From assembly GCF_014699135.1 (NCBI RefSeq), contig NZ_JACOFT010000005.1, forward strand, positions 124,288-188,287: a stretch of 64,000 nucleotides of DNA, written 5' to 3'. The notes beneath the pieces were generated by a model. It was not told the DNA's origin. It searched no databases and saw only the letters and a list, made by a program, of their open reading frames with translations. The DNA is from Cognatundibacterium aquatile. Its GTDB lineage: Bacteria; Pseudomonadota; Gammaproteobacteria; Burkholderiales; Burkholderiaceae_D. Shown here one piece after another: positions 3,927-45,535 of the stretch; the first letter of the stretch is position 1; each line of letters begins with the position of its first letter. The position numbers and the translations under genes are program-made.

Positions 3927-4673
3927 TTACTTGGATTTACCCTGGCTGGCAACGGCTTTCAGTGCGGCTTCAATCGCCGACTGGTCACCGAGGTAATAAT
4001 GTCTGATTGGTTTCAGATCAGCATCCAGTTCATACACCAAAGGCTGACCATTAGGAATATTCAGATTGACGATATCGTCGTCGCTGATGCCATCGAGCAT
4101 TTTGATCAGGGCGCGCAGGCTGTTGCCGTGTGCTGAGATCAGGATACGTTTGCCAGAGCGGATCGCAGGTGCAATGCTGTCTTCCCATGCCGGTACGACG
4201 CGTGCCACTGTGTCTTTCAAACATTCTGTCAATGGGATTTGTTTGCGATCCAGACCGGCATAACGCGGATCATTAAACGACGTGCGGTCATCGTCTTCTG
4301 CCAGCGGATTTGGCGGTGTGTCATAGCTGCGGCGCCATACCAATACTTGGTCATCACCGTACTTGGCGGCAGTTTCTGCTTTGTTCAGGCCTTGCAGCGC
4401 GCCATAGTGGCGCTCATTCAGACGCCAGTCGTGCACGACTGGCAGCCACATCAGATCCATTTCATCGAGCGTGCCCCACAGCGTGCGGATTGCACGTTTG
4501 AGGACGGAAGTGTAGGCCAGGTCAAATGTCAGCCCGGCTTCTTTGAGTAATTTCCCCGCTTGTGTCGCCTCGGCGACGCCTTTCGGGGTCAGGTCAACGT
4601 CGGTCCAGCCGGTGAAACGGTTGTCAAGATTCCAGGTGGATTCACCGTGTCGCATTAATACGATTTTGTACAT
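3927..4673 (-). CDS. gpmA: 2,3-bisphosphoglycerate-dependent phosphoglycerate mutase
   Basis: 248 residues, the usual length. It interconverts 3- and 2-phosphoglycerate in glycolysis and gluconeogenesis in the cytoplasm. Visible: the phospho-histidine motif L-M-R-H-G-E-S (His9), Glu87 in R-L-N-E-R-H-Y-G, and the second active-site His182 in S-A-H-G-N-S. The C-terminal tail closes the active site in this family. It is the first gene of the minus-strand run toward ctpA and diverges from the rhodanese gene across a gap of about 100 bases. Confidence 0.96.
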
Positions 4674-4730
4674 AGTGGTCAGTTTAAGTCGTGGTTAGTA
4701 TGCATTTAAATATGTTCGCTGCATCTATTT

Positions 4731-4736
4731 TATAAT
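4731..4736 (+). promoter_or_regulatory. Candidate -10 box for the rhodanese-grxC unit
   Basis: A perfect TATAAT lies 38 bases before the GTG start of the rhodanese gene in the divergent gap with gpmA. No good -35 box is seen 17 bases upstream, so this is a candidate only. Confidence 0.4.
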
Positions 4737-4774
4737 GACGGGCTTCTGATAACCATTTTTACTACTGGAAACCT

Positions 4775-5176
4775 GTGAAATTCATTCTTGATAATATTTT
4801 TCTGATCGGTATTGCGTTGATTTCTGGTGGTGCTTTATTGCTGCCTTTGTTGCAACGCCGTGGTGCCAAAGTGTCGCAATTACAGGCGACACAATACATC
4901 AATCAGGGCAAAACGCTGGTGCTGGATGTGCGTAGCGCAGACGAATTTGCGACGGGCCATCTGCCGAATGCAAAAAATATCCCGCTGGCAGAAATCAATA
5001 ATCGCTTGAAAGAAATCGAAAAGTCCAAAAATGCAGTGGTGATCACTGTCTGCGCGACGGGCGTGCGTTCTTCGAATGCCGTTTCTGTGTTGAATAAAGC
5101 CGGATTTGCGCAGGTATTCAGTCTCGATGGTGGCACCGAAGCCTGGAAAACCCAGGGTATGCCGATTGTTAAGTAA
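4775..5176 (+). CDS. Membrane-anchored rhodanese-like sulfurtransferase
   Basis: 133 residues starting at GTG, with a modest GGAA ribosome site just upstream. An N-terminal membrane helix (about 5-26) is followed by a single rhodanese domain with the catalytic loop C-A-T-G-V-R-S-S (Cys93) and the usual D-V-R-S-A-D-E-F and G-H-L-P-N-A motifs. The family transfers sulfane sulfur. The anchored single-domain form is the YibN type, found beside grxC and secB in many gamma- and betaproteobacteria. That same order occurs here, with grxC 24 bases downstream. Confidence 0.9.
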   Translation: MKFILDNIFLIGIALISGGALLLPLLQRRGAKVSQLQATQYINQGKTLVLDVRSADEFATGHLPNAKNIPLAEINNRLKEIEKSKNAVVITVCATGVRSSNAVSVLNKAGFAQVFSLDGGTEAWKTQGMPIVK

Positions 5177-5200
5177 GCTGTAAAGTAGCTGGAGAAGTGT

Positions 5201-5461
5201 ATGAAACCGCAAGTTCGTATGTATAGCACGGGCGTTTGTCCGTATTGCACGATGGCTGAACGCTTGTTGAAATCCAAGGGCGTCGATGAAATCGACAAAG
5301 TGCGCATTGATCTTGATCCTGCCGAACGCGATGCGATGATGCAGAAAACCGGGCGCCGCACGGTGCCGCAGATTTACATCGGCGACACCCATGTTGGTGG
5401 TTTTGACGATTTATCGGCCCTTGATCGTGCCGGTAAGCTCGATGCTTTGCTGAATCCTTGA
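5201..5461 (+). CDS. grxC: Glutaredoxin 3
   Basis: 86 residues. It reduces disulfides and glutathionylated proteins with electrons from glutathione in the cytoplasm. The dithiol active site C-P-Y-C is at residues 13-16. The T-V-P-Q-I-Y-I-G segment carries the cis-proline, and G-G-F-D-D-L contacts glutathione. The rhodanese gene ends 24 bases upstream, so the two are likely one transcript, closed by a terminator right after the stop codon. Confidence 0.96.
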   Translation: MKPQVRMYSTGVCPYCTMAERLLKSKGVDEIDKVRIDLDPAERDAMMQKTGRRTVPQIYIGDTHVGGFDDLSALDRAGKLDALLNP

Positions 5462-5465
5462 GCAA

Positions 5466-5489
5466 AAAATCCGGCTTTGACCGGATTTT
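5466..5489 (+). terminator. Terminator after grxC
   Basis: AAAATCCGG and CCGGATTTT form a perfect stem around CTTTGA, five bases after the grxC stop codon. The T-run is short, so efficiency is uncertain. Confidence 0.7.
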
Positions 5490-5520
5490 CTACGGGCTTG
5501 CTGTTGAAGTGTCTGCGAAG

Positions 5521-5550
5521 TTGTGATTTTTGCAGTCTCCTTGCTACAAT
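5521..5550 (+). promoter_or_regulatory. Candidate sigma-70 promoter for secB
   Basis: TTGTGA, 18 bases, then TACAAT. It lies after the grxC terminator and about 90 bases before the secB start codon, so secB can be transcribed separately from the rhodanese-grxC unit. Confidence 0.55.
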
Positions 5551-5641
5551 AAGGCGGCGCGATCTTGAAATGGCCAGAATCGGCCCTATCTGCCCATCTC
5601 GCTGTTCATTATTAATCTTTTAGAATTTTAGAAAGTCTCAC

Positions 5642-6115
5642 ATGTCTGACGAAAATCTGCAGCCCGTATTCCAAATCCAACGCGTATATCTGAAAGATTT
5701 GTCGCTTGAACAGCCAAATTCTCCAGCGATTTTCCTGGAACAAGAAGCCCCTGGCATCGAAGTTTCTGTTGATGTCGGCAATGAAAAACTGGCGGATGGC
5801 ATTTTTGAATCGACAGTGACAGTGACTGTGACAGCTAAAATCGGCGACAAAGTAGCGTTCCTGGTTGAAGGCAAACAAGCCGGTATTTTCGAAGCGCGCA
5901 ATATCCCTGAAGATCAGCTCGATCCATTGCTGGGTATCGGTTGCCCGAACATCATCTATCCATACCTGCGTTCTAACGTAGCGGATGCGATCACCCGCGC
6001 TGGTTTCCCACCGATTCATCTGTCGGAAATCAACTTTGAAGCCTTCTATGCGCAACGTTTGCAAATCGCAGCAGATCAGGCTAACGCAGCTGAAGCACCT
6101 GCGACTATCCAGTAA
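5642..6115 (+). CDS. secB: Protein-export chaperone SecB
   Basis: 157 residues, typical of the family. SecB is a cytoplasmic homotetramer that keeps secretory precursors unfolded and hands them to SecA. The sequence matches along its whole length: Q-R-V-Y-L-K-D-L-S near the start, the central beta-strands (T-V-T-V-T-A-K), [13 protein letters not shown], and the G-F-P-P-I-H-L segment. It follows grxC after a terminator and its own candidate promoter. The SH3 protein and gpsA follow on the same strand. Confidence 0.96.
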
Positions 6116-6178
6116 TTTTCCTGATACCCGCCGGATCGCCATCTGATTGACGATCCGCGCGGGTGAAGAAAGAAGTTC

Positions 6179-6628
6179 ATGCGCGGCTTGATTTCCATTT
6201 CTACCCTGAGTCTGTTGGCGACGCTGGTGACAGCGCCGGTGCAGGCGATGGAGTTCCGTTCGGTTGGTGCGACGCCTGTGATTATGTACGACGCGCCTTC
6301 GGTCAAAGGTGGCAAAGTCTATGTGGCGCCACGCGGCATGCCGGTGGAAGTGATTTTTACCTCGGGTGCGTGGAGCAAAGTCAGGGATATGGCGGGCGAC
6401 CTGAGTTGGGTCGAATCCAAGGATCTGATTACCCGCCGCAATCTGATTGTGCGGGTTGCCAATGCGAAAATCCGCGCCAGTGCTGATGACAGTGCCGCAC
6501 TGGTATTCAGCGCTGAGAAAAACGTCTTGCTGGAAATGGCCGAGCCTGCTTCGGCCGGTTGGGTCAAAGTCCGGCATCGCGACGGGCAACTTGGTTACGT
6601 GAAAGTGAACGAGGTCTGGGGTTTATAA
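6179..6628 (+). CDS. Secreted SH3-domain protein
   Basis: 149 residues with a signal peptide (cleavage near A-Q-A-M, about residue 23). The mature part reads as two bacterial SH3-like repeats: one starting near V-I-M-Y-D-A-P-S with the signature W-S-K-V-R-D, and a second near K-I-R-A-S-A-D-D-S with W-V-K-V-R-H and G-Y-V-K-V. Such domains often bind peptidoglycan in the periplasm, though this protein has no catalytic domain. It sits between secB (63 bases upstream) and gpsA, an order found in related Burkholderiales. The exact role is unknown. Confidence 0.8.
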   Translation: MRGLISISTLSLLATLVTAPVQAMEFRSVGATPVIMYDAPSVKGGKVYVAPRGMPVEVIFTSGAWSKVRDMAGDLSWVESKDLITRRNLIVRVANAKIRASADDSAALVFSAEKNVLLEMAEPASAGWVKVRHRDGQLGYVKVNEVWGL

Positions 6629-40448: not shown

Positions 40449-41402
40449 ATGAGTGTCCGTCAACGCGTTTCTATGGCTGTCCTGAGTCTCTTTATCTTGT
40501 TAGCAGGTGCTTTGTTTCTGGGTTTAGCGATCGCCTGGGCACCTGACAAATCTGTCGATGACCTGAAACAAAAATGGGCACCTGCACCTTCAAAATTTAT
40601 TGATGTTCACGGTTTGCAGGTGCATGTGCGCGACGAAGGCCTGGCGGACGATCCCGTTCCGGTGATGCTGATCCATGGCACCTCATCCAGCCTGCATACC
40701 TGGGAACCGTGGGTGAAAGCCTTGAAGGCAGAACGCCGCGTGATCACCATGGATTTACCCGGTTTTGGTCTGACCGGGCCGAATCAGGAAAATGATTACA
40801 GCACGACGGCTTACGTGCGTTTCATTCTGGATCTGATGGATAGCTTGCATCTGTCTAAAGTCGTGTTGGGCGGTAACTCTCTTGGTGGCGAAATCGCCTG
40901 GGAAGTCGCTGCTGCTGCACCGGCGCGGGTAGACAAACTGATCCTGGTGGATGCAGCAGGTTATGCGTTCACACCAAAATCGATACCAGTTGGTTTTCAG
41001 ATTGCGCGCATGCCTATGATGTCGTGGGTGATGGATCACTGCCTGCCGCGCTCTATGGTTGAATCCAGCGTCAAGAATGTTTATGCCCGCCCGGAAAAAG
41101 TCACGCCAGCCTTAGTTGATCGCTATGAAGCGATGATGCTGCGCGAAGGAAATCGTCCCGCCCTGCGCCAGCGTATCAGCCAGCTCGCCATCGGCGATCA
41201 TGCTGAACTAATCAAAACGATACGTGTACCGACCCTGATACTCTGGGGTGGCAAAGATCAGTTGATACCGCCGGAAAACGCAGAGTGGTTTCAGCAAGAT
41301 ATTGCTAACAGCAAGCTGATTATGTTTGATGAACTCGGCCATGTTCCGCAGGAAGAAAATCCCGTAGTCACCGTCGCTGCGGTCCGCATATTTTTGCAGT
41401 AA
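40449..41402 (+). CDS. Membrane-anchored alpha/beta hydrolase
   Basis: 317 residues. An N-terminal hydrophobic helix (about 8-31) suggests anchoring in the inner membrane, facing the periplasm. The hydrolase fold has the oxyanion motif L-I-H-G-T, the nucleophile elbow G-N-S-L-G-G (Ser near 146), the acid in L-W-G-G-K-D and the late His in E-L-G-H-V-P-Q-E-E-N. Esterase, lipase or C-C hydrolase activity is possible. The gene is followed 15 bases later by a cytochrome c gene on the same strand, so they may be co-transcribed. Confidence 0.86.
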   Translation: MSVRQRVSMAVLSLFILLAGALFLGLAIAWAPDKSVDDLKQKWAPAPSKFIDVHGLQVHVRDEGLADDPVPVMLIHGTSSSLHTWEPWVKALKAERRVITMDLPGFGLTGPNQENDYSTTAYVRFILDLMDSLHLSKVVLGGNSLGGEIAWEVAAAAPARVDKLILVDAAGYAFTPKSIPVGFQIARMPMMSWVMDHCLPRSMVESSVKNVYARPEKVTPALVDRYEAMMLREGNRPALRQRISQLAIGDHAELIKTIRVPTLILWGGKDQLIPPENAEWFQQDIANSKLIMFDELGHVPQEENPVVTVAAVRIFLQ

Positions 41403-41417
41403 TCTGAGGAACCCGTC

Positions 41418-41747
41418 ATGTCCGCTTTTCGTCTGTGTATTTCTTACGGTCTTGTCGCGCTGAGTTTGCTTGGCACCGGTATTGCAGGGGCCGAAGATGT
41501 GATGGCCGAAGGCAAGAAAATCTTCAATCAGAAAGCCGAGCCGAAATGTGCGATGTGCCATAGCCTGAAACATGCGGATTCGTATGCAGAAGGCGGCCCC
41601 GACTTGGACGAGCTGAAGCCGGATGCGGCGCGGGTGGAAAAAGCGGTGCGTAACGGCATAGGTGAAATGCCGGTGATTACCGGATTGACTGATGCAGAAA
41701 TCAAACTGGTGGCGCGCTATCTGGCAGAAGTCGCCGGTAAGAAATAA
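41418..41747 (+). CDS. Small monohaem cytochrome c
   Basis: 109 residues. A signal peptide (about 1-25, ending I-A-G-A-E) directs it to the periplasm. The haem-binding C-A-M-C-H is at residues 44-48, and a Met ligand is likely in G-E-M-P-V-I-T-G-L. It is a class I electron carrier. It starts 15 bases after the alpha/beta hydrolase stop codon. The redox partner is not visible in the window. The downstream 640 bases hold no gene but carry the hairpin array. Confidence 0.88.
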   Translation: MSAFRLCISYGLVALSLLGTGIAGAEDVMAEGKKIFNQKAEPKCAMCHSLKHADSYAEGGPDLDELKPDAARVEKAVRNGIGEMPVITGLTDAEIKLVARYLAEVAGKK

Positions 41748-41830
41748 GCTGCTAAGAAATAATTCAGTGCAATCTGCACAAACCTTACATCTGCGCTCGT
41801 TCTGATCGGCCAAAACAAAAGCGGCAGACA

Positions 41831-41855
41831 ACAAAAAGCCCACCATACGGTGGGC
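41831..41855 (-). terminator. Minus-strand terminator at the left end of the hairpin array
   Basis: Read on the minus strand, GCCCACC and GGTGGGC pair around GTAT and are followed by five T. It would end a transcript coming from the csp side through the array. Confidence 0.8.
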
Positions 41856-41869
41856 GATCCATTCATTGC

Positions 41870-41967
41870 AGTGACTCGTCAGCAACCCATGCTATCTGCG
41901 TGGTGCCACTGACTGTAACAATGCCCGTGCTATCTGCGCGGTGCTTGTCGTGGTGAGTCACTTTTTT
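41870..41967 (+). ncRNA. Hairpin-array unit 1 (two TATCT hairpins inside an outer stem)
   Basis: Outer stem AGTGACTC (41870-41877) with GAGTCACT (41955-41962), then six T. Inside are hairpin CCATGC-TATCT-GCGTGG (41887-41903) and hairpin CCGTGC-TATCT-GCGCGG (41925-41941). The inner stems differ between copies but remain paired (with G-T wobbles), and the loop is identical. The strand is not certain, because a minus-strand terminator also bounds the unit. No RNA family was identified. Confidence 0.6.
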
Positions 41968-42117
41968 CTGCGTTGTCAGTCAATACTGGCAACCTCAGAG
42001 GGCAAAACGAATGCGTACCTTCGCAAGATCGACCAACGCATTTTTTCATGATGCACACGCATCAGTAAAAAAGAGATGGACGATTGCATAGCAAAAAGCA
42101 GATGCTTTCCAGTGAAA

Positions 42118-42183
42118 CTCACTGATCAACTACGCCATTTTCCGATAACCCATACTATCTGTATGGTGCCACCAGCCGGTGAG
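42118..42183 (+). ncRNA. Hairpin-array unit 2
   Basis: Outer stem CTCACTG (42118-42124) with CGGTGAG (42177-42183, one wobble). Inside, hairpin CCATAC-TATCT-GTATGG (42150-42166) is a fully compensated version of the unit 3 stem. Unlike units 1 and 3, no T-run follows on the plus strand. Confidence 0.55.
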
Positions 42184-42256
42184 AATTGATTGCCGCCAGA
42201 GTGCACTGCGTGAGAGCAGCGTACTGGTATGCGAAGGCTTGCTGTAACGGTCAGAC

Positions 42257-42321
42257 TTTGTTCATCAGCAACCCATGCTATCTGCATGGTGTCACTGGCC
42301 GGTATTGCAGAACAAATTTTT
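42257..42321 (+). ncRNA. Hairpin-array unit 3
   Basis: Outer stem TTTGTTC (42257-42263) with GAACAAA (42310-42316), then five T. Inside, CAGCAACCCATGC-TATCT-GCATGG (stem 42273-42289) is followed by TGTCACTGGCCGG. The flanks CAGCAACC and GGTG(C/T)CAC are shared with the first hairpin of unit 1. Confidence 0.6.
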
Positions 42322-42386
42322 CATCACAGCAAAAACGGTTGGCGCTGTTCTGGCAAGCATCGCCTGCCGGAATATGCCGGGAGACT

Positions 42387-42599
42387 TTAAGCCAGAATCT
42401 GGATATTGCCTGCTTTGTCGCCTTTAGGGCCTGTCGTGCGTTCAAAAGAAACGCGCTGATTTTCGCTCAGACTTTTGAAGCCGCTCGATTGAATGTCCTG
42501 AAAGTGGGCGAACAAATCTGCACCACCTGCATCAGGAGCGATGAAGCCGAAGCCCTTAGCGTCGTTGAACCATTTTACGATACCTGTTTGAGTACTCAT
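42387..42599 (-). CDS. Cold-shock protein (CspA family)
   Basis: 70 residues, one cold-shock domain. It binds single-stranded RNA and DNA and melts RNA structure. Both RNA-binding motifs are present: K-G-F-G-F-I (RNP1) and D-L-F-A-H-F (RNP2). The ribosome site AAAGGA lies eight bases before the ATG. The hairpin array lies directly downstream on the same transcript strand and ends in a minus-strand terminator, so the array could be the 3' part of this message. The upstream region probably carries a long cold-shock leader, as is usual in the family. Confidence 0.95.
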
Positions 42600-43135
42600 G
42601 TTTTTATTCCTTTACGTGAAACATAGGCGAAATTGCCTTGGAGGCACTTGAAACCAAGAAATAAAACCGGAGGAGAAAAAACAGAACAGCCAGAGGATAC
42701 AGCTATGCGGAATTGGGACCAACAATATAAGGACTTGATGCAAGTACGGAACGGAATATACACGGGAAAACAACAAACACCAAACTTTATTTTTAATCCG
42801 ATCTGGTATTGATCACACAAAAGAGCATTCTTCCACCACAAAAAAATGCCAGCTTTTCATAGACAAAAACAGGCTCCGCATCAGGTGTTTAAGTGCTTGT
42901 TTTTATTACGAAAATTAATTGAAAATATTTTTCATTGTTGGTGATTCATATGATTTTTCCGTGGTGTTTTTTATATTCCATATATCTTTTTCATCTTTTC
43001 TAAGTGAAAAAAGGTCGTTGGGCAGCCAGCCCTCAGCACGTAGCATGAATCTCCATCGCTGCAGTCATTTTCTGACTGCGTTATCAGGCGTTCGTTATCA
43101 GGCGTCCGTTTTGCCAATTACAAAGAGGTTTATTC
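42600..43135. other. Divergent 536-bp region between csp and the TonB receptor
   Basis: No gene. It holds the csp leader (minus) and the receptor leader (plus). Visible: an AT-rich palindrome TGAAAA-TAT-TTTTCA (42920-42934), a hairpin GCAGTCA-TTTTC-TGACTGC (43061-43079) and a direct repeat of CGTTATCAGGCGT (43079-43091 and 43093-43105) just before the receptor gene. No riboswitch consensus was recognised. Confidence 0.5.
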
Positions 43136-45535
43136 ATGCGTGCGTATCAAACTTTTTCTATTCCCGTTCCCCGCCGTTCCATCAGTCTGCTGATCGGCGC
43201 TTTATTCAGCAGTCTGGTGGCTCCGGCTTCGGCTGTGTATGCGCAACAAGCCGAGATCGCTGCAGCTGATACTGTGATTGTCACCGGCACGCGCAGCATC
43301 AAGCGCACTGTCTCTGATTCCGAAGCACCTATCGATATTCTGACCAGTAAAGATTTGCAGGCCAGCGGCACCGGTGAATTAGGTACTGCCTTAAGCCGCT
43401 TGCTGCCTTCCTTGAATTTCCCGCGTCCGGCTGTTGCTGACGGCACTTCTGCGAGTCGTCCGGCACAATTGCGCGGCTTGTCACCCGATCAGACGCTGGT
43501 GCTGGTGAATGGCAAGCGCTGGCACACGACGGCGATTGTCAACGTCAACGGCACGGCAGGGCGCGGATCTTCACCGGCTGATCTGAATACCATTCCTATT
43601 TCTGCGATTGAAAAAGTCGAAGTTCTGCGCGATGGTGCAGCGGCGCAATATGGTTCTGATGCGATTGCCGGCGTGATCAACATCATTCTCAAAAAAGGTG
43701 CGGCGGGCGGCGAGTTACAAGCAGGAGGCGGTCAATACAGCAAGGGTGACGGCACGCAAGGTGCGCTGAGCGCCAACTTTGGTAGCCAACTGGGCGACAA
43801 AGGCTGGGTGCGTTTTACCGCAGAACAAAAATATCAGGGCGAGACCAACCGCGCGGGTGCTGATTTGCGTAATCCGGCCGAGCCTTTGTATGGCAAGGTC
43901 ACGCAGAAACAAGGTGACCCGAAAGTTCAGCAAACCAATTTGGGACTGAATGGGTCTTTGCCGCTGAATAATGATCTTGAACTGTATGCGTTTGCGAATG
44001 TCAGCCAGCGTGATTCCGATGCGGCCGCAACCTGGCGCACGGCTTACACCAGCGGCACGACTTTGCGCACACCGCTGTATCCACAAGGCTTTTTGCCGAA
44101 TGAAGCGGCAAGAAATACCGATGTTTCCACCGTGGTCGGGATCAAAGGGCGGGCCGATGGCTGGCGCTGGGATGCGAGTGCCAATTACGGTTCGAATGAA
44201 TTCAGCCTCGATGTGAATAACAGCGTCAACCTCAGTTTAGGTGCTGCCAGCCCGACCAGTTTTTATGCTGGTAAATTAAAAAATTCGCAGACACTGGCGA
44301 ACTTTGATGCGGCCAAAGAATTTGAATTTGCCGGTCTGGCGAACCCGCTGACATTGGCGGTCGGTGCCGAATACCGGCGTGATCAATATGAGATCAGCGC
44401 CGGTGAGCCAAACTCGTATTTCGGCAGCGGTGCGCAGGGTTTCTCCGGCTTCCAGCCATCGAATGCAGGCAGCTTTAACCGTCACAGCACATCGGTGTAT
44501 GCGAACGTTGAAGCCGAGCTGACAAAACAACTCAGCGCCTCAGTCGCGGTGCGGCATGAAAATTACAGCGATTTTGGCAGCGTCACTTCCGGTAAATTAT
44601 CGGGCCGTTTTGCTGTGACACCGGAATTTGCGTTGCGTGGTGCGGCGTCCAATGGCTTCCGCGCACCATCGTTAGCGCAGCAAAATTACACGATCTCGAC
44701 CACCAATCTGATCACCATTAACGGCACCTCGCAACTGGTCGATACCGGCACCTTTGGCGTTGCTACTGCGGCGGCAAAAGCGTTGGGTGCGAAACCGCTG
44801 GAAGCTGAAAAATCGCGCAACTATAGTCTGGGTGCGGTGTTGCAGCCGAATAAAAATGTCTCGCTGAGCGTCGATGCGTATCAGATCGATATTGATAACC
44901 GCATTTTGTATTCCGGTAATCTGGTGTTGCCAGCGGCCTTGCAAAGCGTGCTGGCGAAACAGGGCGTGCTGGTCGGCGCCGCGCGTTATTTCACGAATGC
45001 GCTGGATTCACAAACACGCGGCGTGGATATCGTCGGCACTTATCAGCTGAGCCTGACTGGCAGCGATAAACTCGGGCTGACGCTGGGTTACAACCACAAC
45101 AAAACTACCGTCAGCCATGTGGCGGCGAATCCGGCGGTGCTGGCGCAAAATAATCTGTTGCTGATTGATCGGCAATCGCTGTTGCGCGCGACTGATTCTG
45201 CACCGAAAGACAAGCTGACACTGAGCGCTGATTACGCGCTCAATCAATGGACGGCGCGTGCGCAGGCAACCCGTTACGGCAGCTTCGTTTCGCCGCAAAA
45301 TAATGCAACGCTGGATCAGACTTATGGTGCGAATGTGGTGGTCGATATTTCTGCCAGCTATCGCATCGGCAAGTGGACGCTGACCGGTGGCATCGACAAT
45401 CTGGGCGACAAATATCCGGATCAGGTGACATCAACCGGGAACCTGAATACCGGCGGCACTTTGCCTTACAGCACCTTCTCGCCGTATGGTTTCAATGGTC
45501 GTTATTTCTATGCGAAGGCAGCTTACGCCTGGTAA
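43136..45535 (+). CDS. TonB-dependent outer-membrane receptor
   Basis: 799 residues. A signal peptide (about 1-36, ending A-V-Y-A-Q-Q) is followed by a TonB-box-like D-T-V-I-V-T-G-T, a plug domain (Q-L-R-G-L-S-P-D-Q-T-L-V-L-V-N-G-K-R, then V-E-V-L-R-D-G-A-A-A-Q-Y-G-S-D-A-I-A-G-V-I-N) and a 22-strand barrel ending Y-A-K-A-A-Y-A-W. The family imports scarce ligands such as iron chelates, vitamins or sugars. The ligand cannot be assigned. Neighbours on the far side (alpha/beta hydrolase, DUF1045, PhnM) do not decide it. Strong bidirectional terminator downstream. Confidence 0.92.
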   Translation: MRAYQTFSIPVPRRSISLLIGALFSSLVAPASAVYAQQAEIAAADTVIVTGTRSIKRTVSDSEAPIDILTSKDLQASGTGELGTALSRLLPSLNFPRPAVADGTSASRPAQLRGLSPDQTLVLVNGKRWHTTAIVNVNGTAGRGSSPADLNTIPISAIEKVEVLRDGAAAQYGSDAIAGVINIILKKGAAGGELQAGGGQYSKGDGTQGALSANFGSQLGDKGWVRFTAEQKYQGETNRAGADLRNPAEPLYGKVTQKQGDPKVQQTNLGLNGSLPLNNDLELYAFANVSQRDSDAAATWRTAYTSGTTLRTPLYPQGFLPNEAARNTDVSTVVGIKGRADGWRWDASANYGSNEFSLDVNNSVNLSLGAASPTSFYAGKLKNSQTLANFDAAKEFEFAGLANPLTLAVGAEYRRDQYEISAGEPNSYFGSGAQGFSGFQPSNAGSFNRHSTSVYANVEAELTKQLSASVAVRHENYSDFGSVTSGKLSGRFAVTPEFALRGAASNGFRAPSLAQQNYTISTTNLITINGTSQLVDTGTFGVATAAAKALGAKPLEAEKSRNYSLGAVLQPNKNVSLSVDAYQIDIDNRILYSGNLVLPAALQSVLAKQGVLVGAARYFTNALDSQTRGVDIVGTYQLSLTGSDKLGLTLGYNHNKTTVSHVAANPAVLAQNNLLLIDRQSLLRATDSAPKDKLTLSADYALNQWTARAQATRYGSFVSPQNNATLDQTYGANVVVDISASYRIGKWTLTGGIDNLGDKYPDQVTSTGNLNTGGTLPYSTFSPYGFNGRYFYAKAAYAW

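Follow-up and report, generated by a model that had tools for sequence, protein, structure and literature searches.

The window, a stretch of 64,000 nucleotides, contains a gene-free region of 639 bp between a cytochrome c ORF, which ends at 41747, and the csp ORF (42387..42599, minus strand), which encodes a cold-shock protein of 70 amino acids (Pfam CSD PF00313, E 3.6e-26). A first-pass annotation had described this region as gene-free and as holding four hairpins that share one loop, and both descriptions were borne out, as four near-identical hairpin cores were found at 41886, 41924, 42149 and 42272. On the minus strand, csp lies upstream of the hairpins. The csp-proximal hairpin 4 (42266..42297; core 42272-42291), which has a lower stem, the bulged A and the AGAUA loop, is followed by hairpin 3 (42142..42175; core 42149-42168), hairpin 2 (41918..41948; core 41924-41943) and hairpin 1 (41878..41913; core 41886-41905), each with a lower stem, which in hairpin 1 is of 9 bp. 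An outer stem formed by 41870-41877 and 41955-41962 encloses hairpins 1 and 2 in a three-way junction (41870..41962, minus strand), which was assigned by covariation. Beyond it, a sequence scan revealed an intrinsic terminator, GCCCACC-GTAT-GGTGGGC-TTTTT (41833..41855, minus strand), as the predicted end of the RNA, and in a simple scan no minus-strand terminator was detected between the csp stop codon and 41857. The most economical reading of this arrangement, from the terminator scan and the fold, is a single predicted csp 3' UTR of about 550 nt (41833..42386, minus strand) that carries all four hairpins. No further copy was found in the genome of the window, even at E ≤ 3, so the array exceeds chance. 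A mobile or REP/BIME-type repeat was rejected, as the copies are not dispersed and all four lie in one place.

On the minus strand, the core is made of 20 nt that comprise a C, a bulged A, a 6-bp stem and a C-AGAUA-G loop; it usually sits atop a longer and more variable stem, and the third pair of the 6-bp stem, counted from the loop, is often a C-A mismatch. A scan for this geometry, in which the letters of loop and bulge were both left free and L054 and L098 were left out, yielded 94 hairpins with a 6-bp stem, a 5-nt loop and a 1-nt bulge in 117 loci, compared to 3 in one shuffle. The bulged A was found together with AGAUA in 85 of these 94 hairpins and with a one-base variant of the loop in 4 more, counts in which the conservation of loop and stem is inflated because the relatives' loci were fetched by exact motif. 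The copy number per genome ranged from 1 to 6 with a covariance model of the core (E ≤ 0.01). As some minus-strand copies read ATG CAG ATA GCA TGG, a short leader peptide within the hairpin was considered and rejected on inspection, since the core variants disrupt its codons.

The paired stem changes that the first-pass annotation had pointed to are real and supported by relatives. In 23 related units (26 minus the three with a third hairpin, L022, L025 and L027), the first of the outer stems it had proposed, AGTGACTC/GAGTCACT, covaries, with 6 of its 8 pairs changing on both sides and 75.5% of its cells paired. When this stem and the two hairpins within it were taken together (35 pairs), 85.2% of the cells were paired, compared to 30-41% when the structure was slid along the alignment, and 19 of the 35 pairs showed changes on both sides. 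The covariation score was 0.393 versus 0.223 for shuffled sequences and at most 0.144 when slid, in a test that favours the structure because this was hand-written from the window sequence, though the alignment was not fitted to it. Covariation in homologues thus upheld the proposal of a structured-RNA family. The outer stem proposed for the middle unit, CTCACTG/CGGTGAG, is absent from the consensus fold of 15 relatives, in which hairpin 3 is lengthened and closed by another stem. The third, TTTGTTC/GAACAAA around hairpin 4, is part of the window's best fold on the minus strand and is likewise missing from the 15-relative consensus.

The first-pass annotation had read the hairpins on the plus strand, with a TATCT loop. 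Judged from the sequences compared here, the RNA is the minus strand, and its loop is read as AGAUA, not UAUCU. Intrinsic terminators were sought by a criterion of our own in the 150 nt 3' to the hairpins. Of the 109 loci that could be tested, 93 had one on the minus strand, 3 had one on the plus strand and 16 had neither; L054 and L098 were left out of this test, and 8 further loci were too short for it. Among the loci without csp, a promoter-like site was present within 300 nt upstream in 50/76 on the minus strand, in 0/76 on the plus strand and in 7/76 after shuffling, and in 48 of the 76 the minus-strand site lay at about 60-165 nt. The corresponding numbers in csp loci were 9/42, 0/42 and 5/42, and few sites are expected there if the RNA is the csp mRNA. 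The consensus fold of the 23 related units was also better on the minus strand (-51.4 versus -44.0), with a ratio of G-U to A-C of 108:9 in the minus-strand fold and 35:22 in the plus-strand fold; for one fixed structure, the minus-strand ratio was 133:54. In sets of 15 sequences, hairpin 3 gave 69:12 on the minus strand and folds of -44.4 (minus) and -34.0 (plus), and hairpin 4 gave 46:2 and folds of -30.0 and -24.8, respectively. The terminator hairpin was compared across 31 stand-alone-type loci, and on the minus strand the changes listed for its six pairs comprise 11 G-U but no A-C. The fold z-scores are near-equal on both strands, both in the window (-5.9 minus, -6.3 plus) and as means over 14 loci (-1.75 minus, -2.10 plus), and so favour neither. 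The 20-nt core alone is strand-neutral as well, with 92.5% of cells paired on the plus strand and 92.1% on the minus. The core alignment holds 36 of the 39 core variants, chosen beforehand for having 5 or more of the 6 pairs.

Small RNAs with a UAUCU loop, transcribed from the plus strand, would account for the inner stems of the 23-sequence alignment, where A-C exceeds G-U on the minus strand (29:6). This excess comes mostly from one position, at which the pair is non-standard in 18/23 sequences in hairpin 2 and 11/23 in hairpin 1, and it is read as a recurrent C-A mismatch. Such RNAs would also gain from the 3/109 loci with plus-strand terminators and from T-runs (at least 5 T) after the first outer stem, which are present in just 3 of 26 units, namely the window, L010 (near-identical to it) and L014, and do not form a conserved plus-strand terminator. 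As the terminators and the G-U counts of the longer stems oppose it, and a promoter-like site was found on the plus strand in 0/118 loci with the single consensus tried, transcription from this strand is considered highly improbable. For the window, one predicted csp 3' UTR is thus more economical than the first-pass annotation's array of separate plus-strand small RNAs. In other genera, RNAs with the same hairpin look stand-alone from their predicted signals.

The distribution of the hairpins in the sequences searched indicates that they are an RNA family of one bacterial family, previously undescribed, and of some phages. With the covariance model at E ≤ 0.01, core matches were detected in 101 of 195 genomes and 18 of 40 genera of the window's family (taken as Oxalobacteraceae from what its relatives are named), and the other 94 genomes had none at this threshold. 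When 300 genomes of the order were searched, 35 had a match at E ≤ 0.1; all matches with E below 1e-5 fall within the window's family, and outside it 28 genomes had matches, roughly the number expected by chance at E ≤ 0.1. BLAST of the region revealed arrays of the same kind in many genomes of the same genus, with the hairpins read in 20 fetched loci. G028, of the same genus as the window's genome, carries the array, and a record of Undibacterium rivi has the same hairpins. A scan for exact 20-mers yielded at least 119 stretches; one of them, L054 from Micromonospora, was discarded as coincidental, leaving 118 loci. Among the matches listed, all except L054 are named after Oxalobacteraceae genera or unplaced Burkholderiales, Burkholderiaceae or Pseudomonadota bins. 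Host plasmids gave no match to the hairpin region.

The first-pass annotation could name no RNA family for the hairpins, and Rfam likewise had no match at the curated threshold in the hairpin region. A description of the motif was not found among the best matches of a literature search, and the listed matches of one search concern, by title, eukaryotes or their viruses. The Rfam model of the cspA thermoregulator, RF01766, scored 25.7 bits, compared to a gathering score of 78, and covered the coding region (42346-42750), not the hairpins. Membership in reported betaproteobacterial small-RNA arrays, which the first-pass annotation had considered, was not sustained for RF02278. This toxic small RNA was rejected as a candidate, as it was absent from the Rfam matches at E ≤ 1 in 41000-43500 and had no match at E ≤ 10 on the contig of the window (C13 of G000). 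Elsewhere in the same genome, RF02278 was found above its family cut-off on other contigs, at C14:126003-126061, C1:278702-278767 and C1:278931-278990. In the literature consulted, which included passages of PMC4603805, PMC5688073, PMC7011215 and PMC6337395, four such RNAs are described in B. cenocepacia J2315, and the RNAs of that species are reported to have CU-rich unpaired stretches. The RNA studied here is like them in being a short betaproteobacterial RNA built of hairpins with a terminator, but the RF02278 matches occupy separate loci in G000, and the loop here is AGAUA, compared to the CU-rich unpaired stretches in B. cenocepacia.

The gene neighbourhood was followed in the 118 loci. 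csp was upstream on the RNA strand in 42, brkB was upstream on the RNA strand in 22, and infA was within about 1.2 kb in 23, of which 5 also have csp; infA was downstream on the RNA strand in 17 loci, upstream on it in 4 and on the other strand in 2. None of the three genes was found in 36 loci, of which some are truncated where the locus or contig stops. Loci without csp often lie ahead of infA or behind brkB. The brkB gene, where present, shares the strand of the hairpins and stops about 200 nt short of them, which would allow the RNAs of these loci to be brkB 3' UTRs. In L064 and L136, csp, hairpins and infA follow in sequence, which is perhaps the older order.

In Massilia, Duganella, Pseudoduganella and Janthinobacterium, the hairpins are placed near the 3' end of an RNA with its own promoter-like site and terminator, and in stand-alone-type loci the predicted RNA extends for about 200-300 nt from the promoter-like site to a GC-rich terminator, which has a long tail of T. 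Thirty-one loci without csp share a conserved 3' linker before the terminator, with the consensus CGATTAAAGC...ATTGGTAATACATTGGAAC. These loci had been picked for a promoter-like site and an A-run (45/118), then made non-redundant and limited to under 420 nt, so the conserved promoter in their alignment is partly the result of selection, and the 50/76 above is the unselected count.

3' UTR-derived bacterial small RNAs come from between the stop codon of an mRNA and its terminator. The window RNA and those of csp-type relatives have the same placement by sequence, but differ in having a repeated recognition hairpin that is also present without csp, and their processing is putative. An element acting only in cis, which would have no function in trans and would protect the csp mRNA, process it or bring in Csp itself as feedback, fits the csp gene upstream in 42/118 loci and Massilia L056, L067 and L108, in which the hairpin starts 18-22 nt past the csp stop codon and is followed by the terminator. 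However, csp-less forms with a promoter-like site and virus copies exist, and protection from exonucleases would need no nearly invariant loop; a cis-only role is regarded as unlikely, though it is the strongest of the rivals.

Hairpin and terminator together could instead act as a regulated terminator, through antitermination. This would suit the 17/118 loci with infA downstream on the same strand, which in L055 comes immediately past the terminator, as well as the virus locus L029, where a weakly Q-like gene (E 0.005) and a terminase gene flank the RNA. Against this, the window and the brkB-type L048 have no likely downstream gene on the same strand, the neighbour being convergent, and the distance from hairpin to T-run varies across loci from 31 to 106 nt, which makes antitermination very unlikely.

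Using the same criteria as for the hosts, the hairpin was found in 23 of 61 virus contigs pre-selected by a looser pattern, with near-duplicates among these contigs (L030/L033, L034/L036, L172/L213). By eye, 17 of the 23 copies are followed by a GC-rich hairpin with a T-rich tail, 5 are not and 1 is cut by the contig end. In L029, the genes on either side are the weakly Q-antiterminator-like one and that for the terminase large subunit (1803-2608, 4261-5937), so the copy appears to be in a late-leader position. Phage late-leader (pR'-tR') RNAs include the one that gives rise to StxS. The L029 copy resembles such RNAs in its placement and in ending in a terminator, and differs in bearing the host-type AGAUA hairpin. 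The RNA of a first virus group had no relatives in phage records, and that of a second no credible ones in phage records, plasmids or 200 genomes of the order. In L035, the phage RNA is preceded by CTGTGTATACATCCAG, about 200 nt before the hairpin, a sequence that we take to be LexA-box-like.

From the computed conservation, strand, structure and gene context, we infer transcription, protein binding and titration as follows. The fixed geometry, the nearly invariant loop and the variable copy number suggest a protein-binding site. Transcription of the minus strand would yield copies of one recognition hairpin, carried in the csp mRNA tail or in a small RNA; a putative host protein would dock on the hairpin with its AGAUA loop and bulged A, and the RNA would most likely titrate or recruit this protein, as CsrB does for CsrA. 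CsrB, CsrC, RsmY and RsmZ are protein-titrating RNAs with a repeated hairpin. Like them, the RNAs studied here repeat a single hairpin several times while the rest of their sequence varies, and the copy number differs between species. In contrast, their loops show AGAUA with the bulged A (85/94 scan hairpins) and no GGA of the CsrA/RsmE type, the RNA can take the form of a csp 3' UTR, and the ligand is putative. In addition, the lack of dispersed copies in the window's own genome means that no candidate sites in target mRNAs were seen, which speaks against titration. On balance, a repeated recognition element through which the RNA titrates or recruits an RNA-binding protein is given a probability of about 0.5.

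A small RNA that pairs with other RNAs through the AGAUA loop or the conserved 3' linker, perhaps with Hfq, would draw on the long T tails and on the CGATTAAAGC...ATTGGTAATACATTGGAAC linker of the 31 loci without csp, but the AGAUA loop is not anti-Shine-Dalgarno, and pairing leaves the bulged A and the fixed 6-bp spacing unexplained. Base pairing is thus distinctly unlikely to be the role of this RNA. With the protein-binding element as the preferred reading, the finding is of a structured-RNA family absent from Rfam, which often adjoins genes of two nucleic-acid-binding proteins (csp and infA), of which viruses carry copies too, and whose sharply defined 20-nt core is small enough to serve as it stands as bait for its putative protein.

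In three of the five genomes searched for it (L219, L221 and L225), the palindrome TTGTGC-N3-GCACAA overlaps the -35 region of the promoter of the stand-alone RNA. Its sites number 0-3 per genome and are also present ahead of a phasin gene (L218 1501) and an isocitrate lyase gene (L222 1501); a regulator shared by these sites, perhaps PhaR, is offered as a lead. A broader scenario, tentative and rather less probable than the binding element itself, is an RNA-protein system of the Oxalobacteraceae in which the hairpin, bound by a previously undescribed protein and carried in csp tails, would have moved in certain genera to a stand-alone gene with the phasin-promoter palindrome and been copied by temperate phages as a competitor. 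In L144, where 8 kb contain no csp, infA or brkB pattern, five cores are gathered in one locus (6086-6295, as oriented in the hairpin scan).
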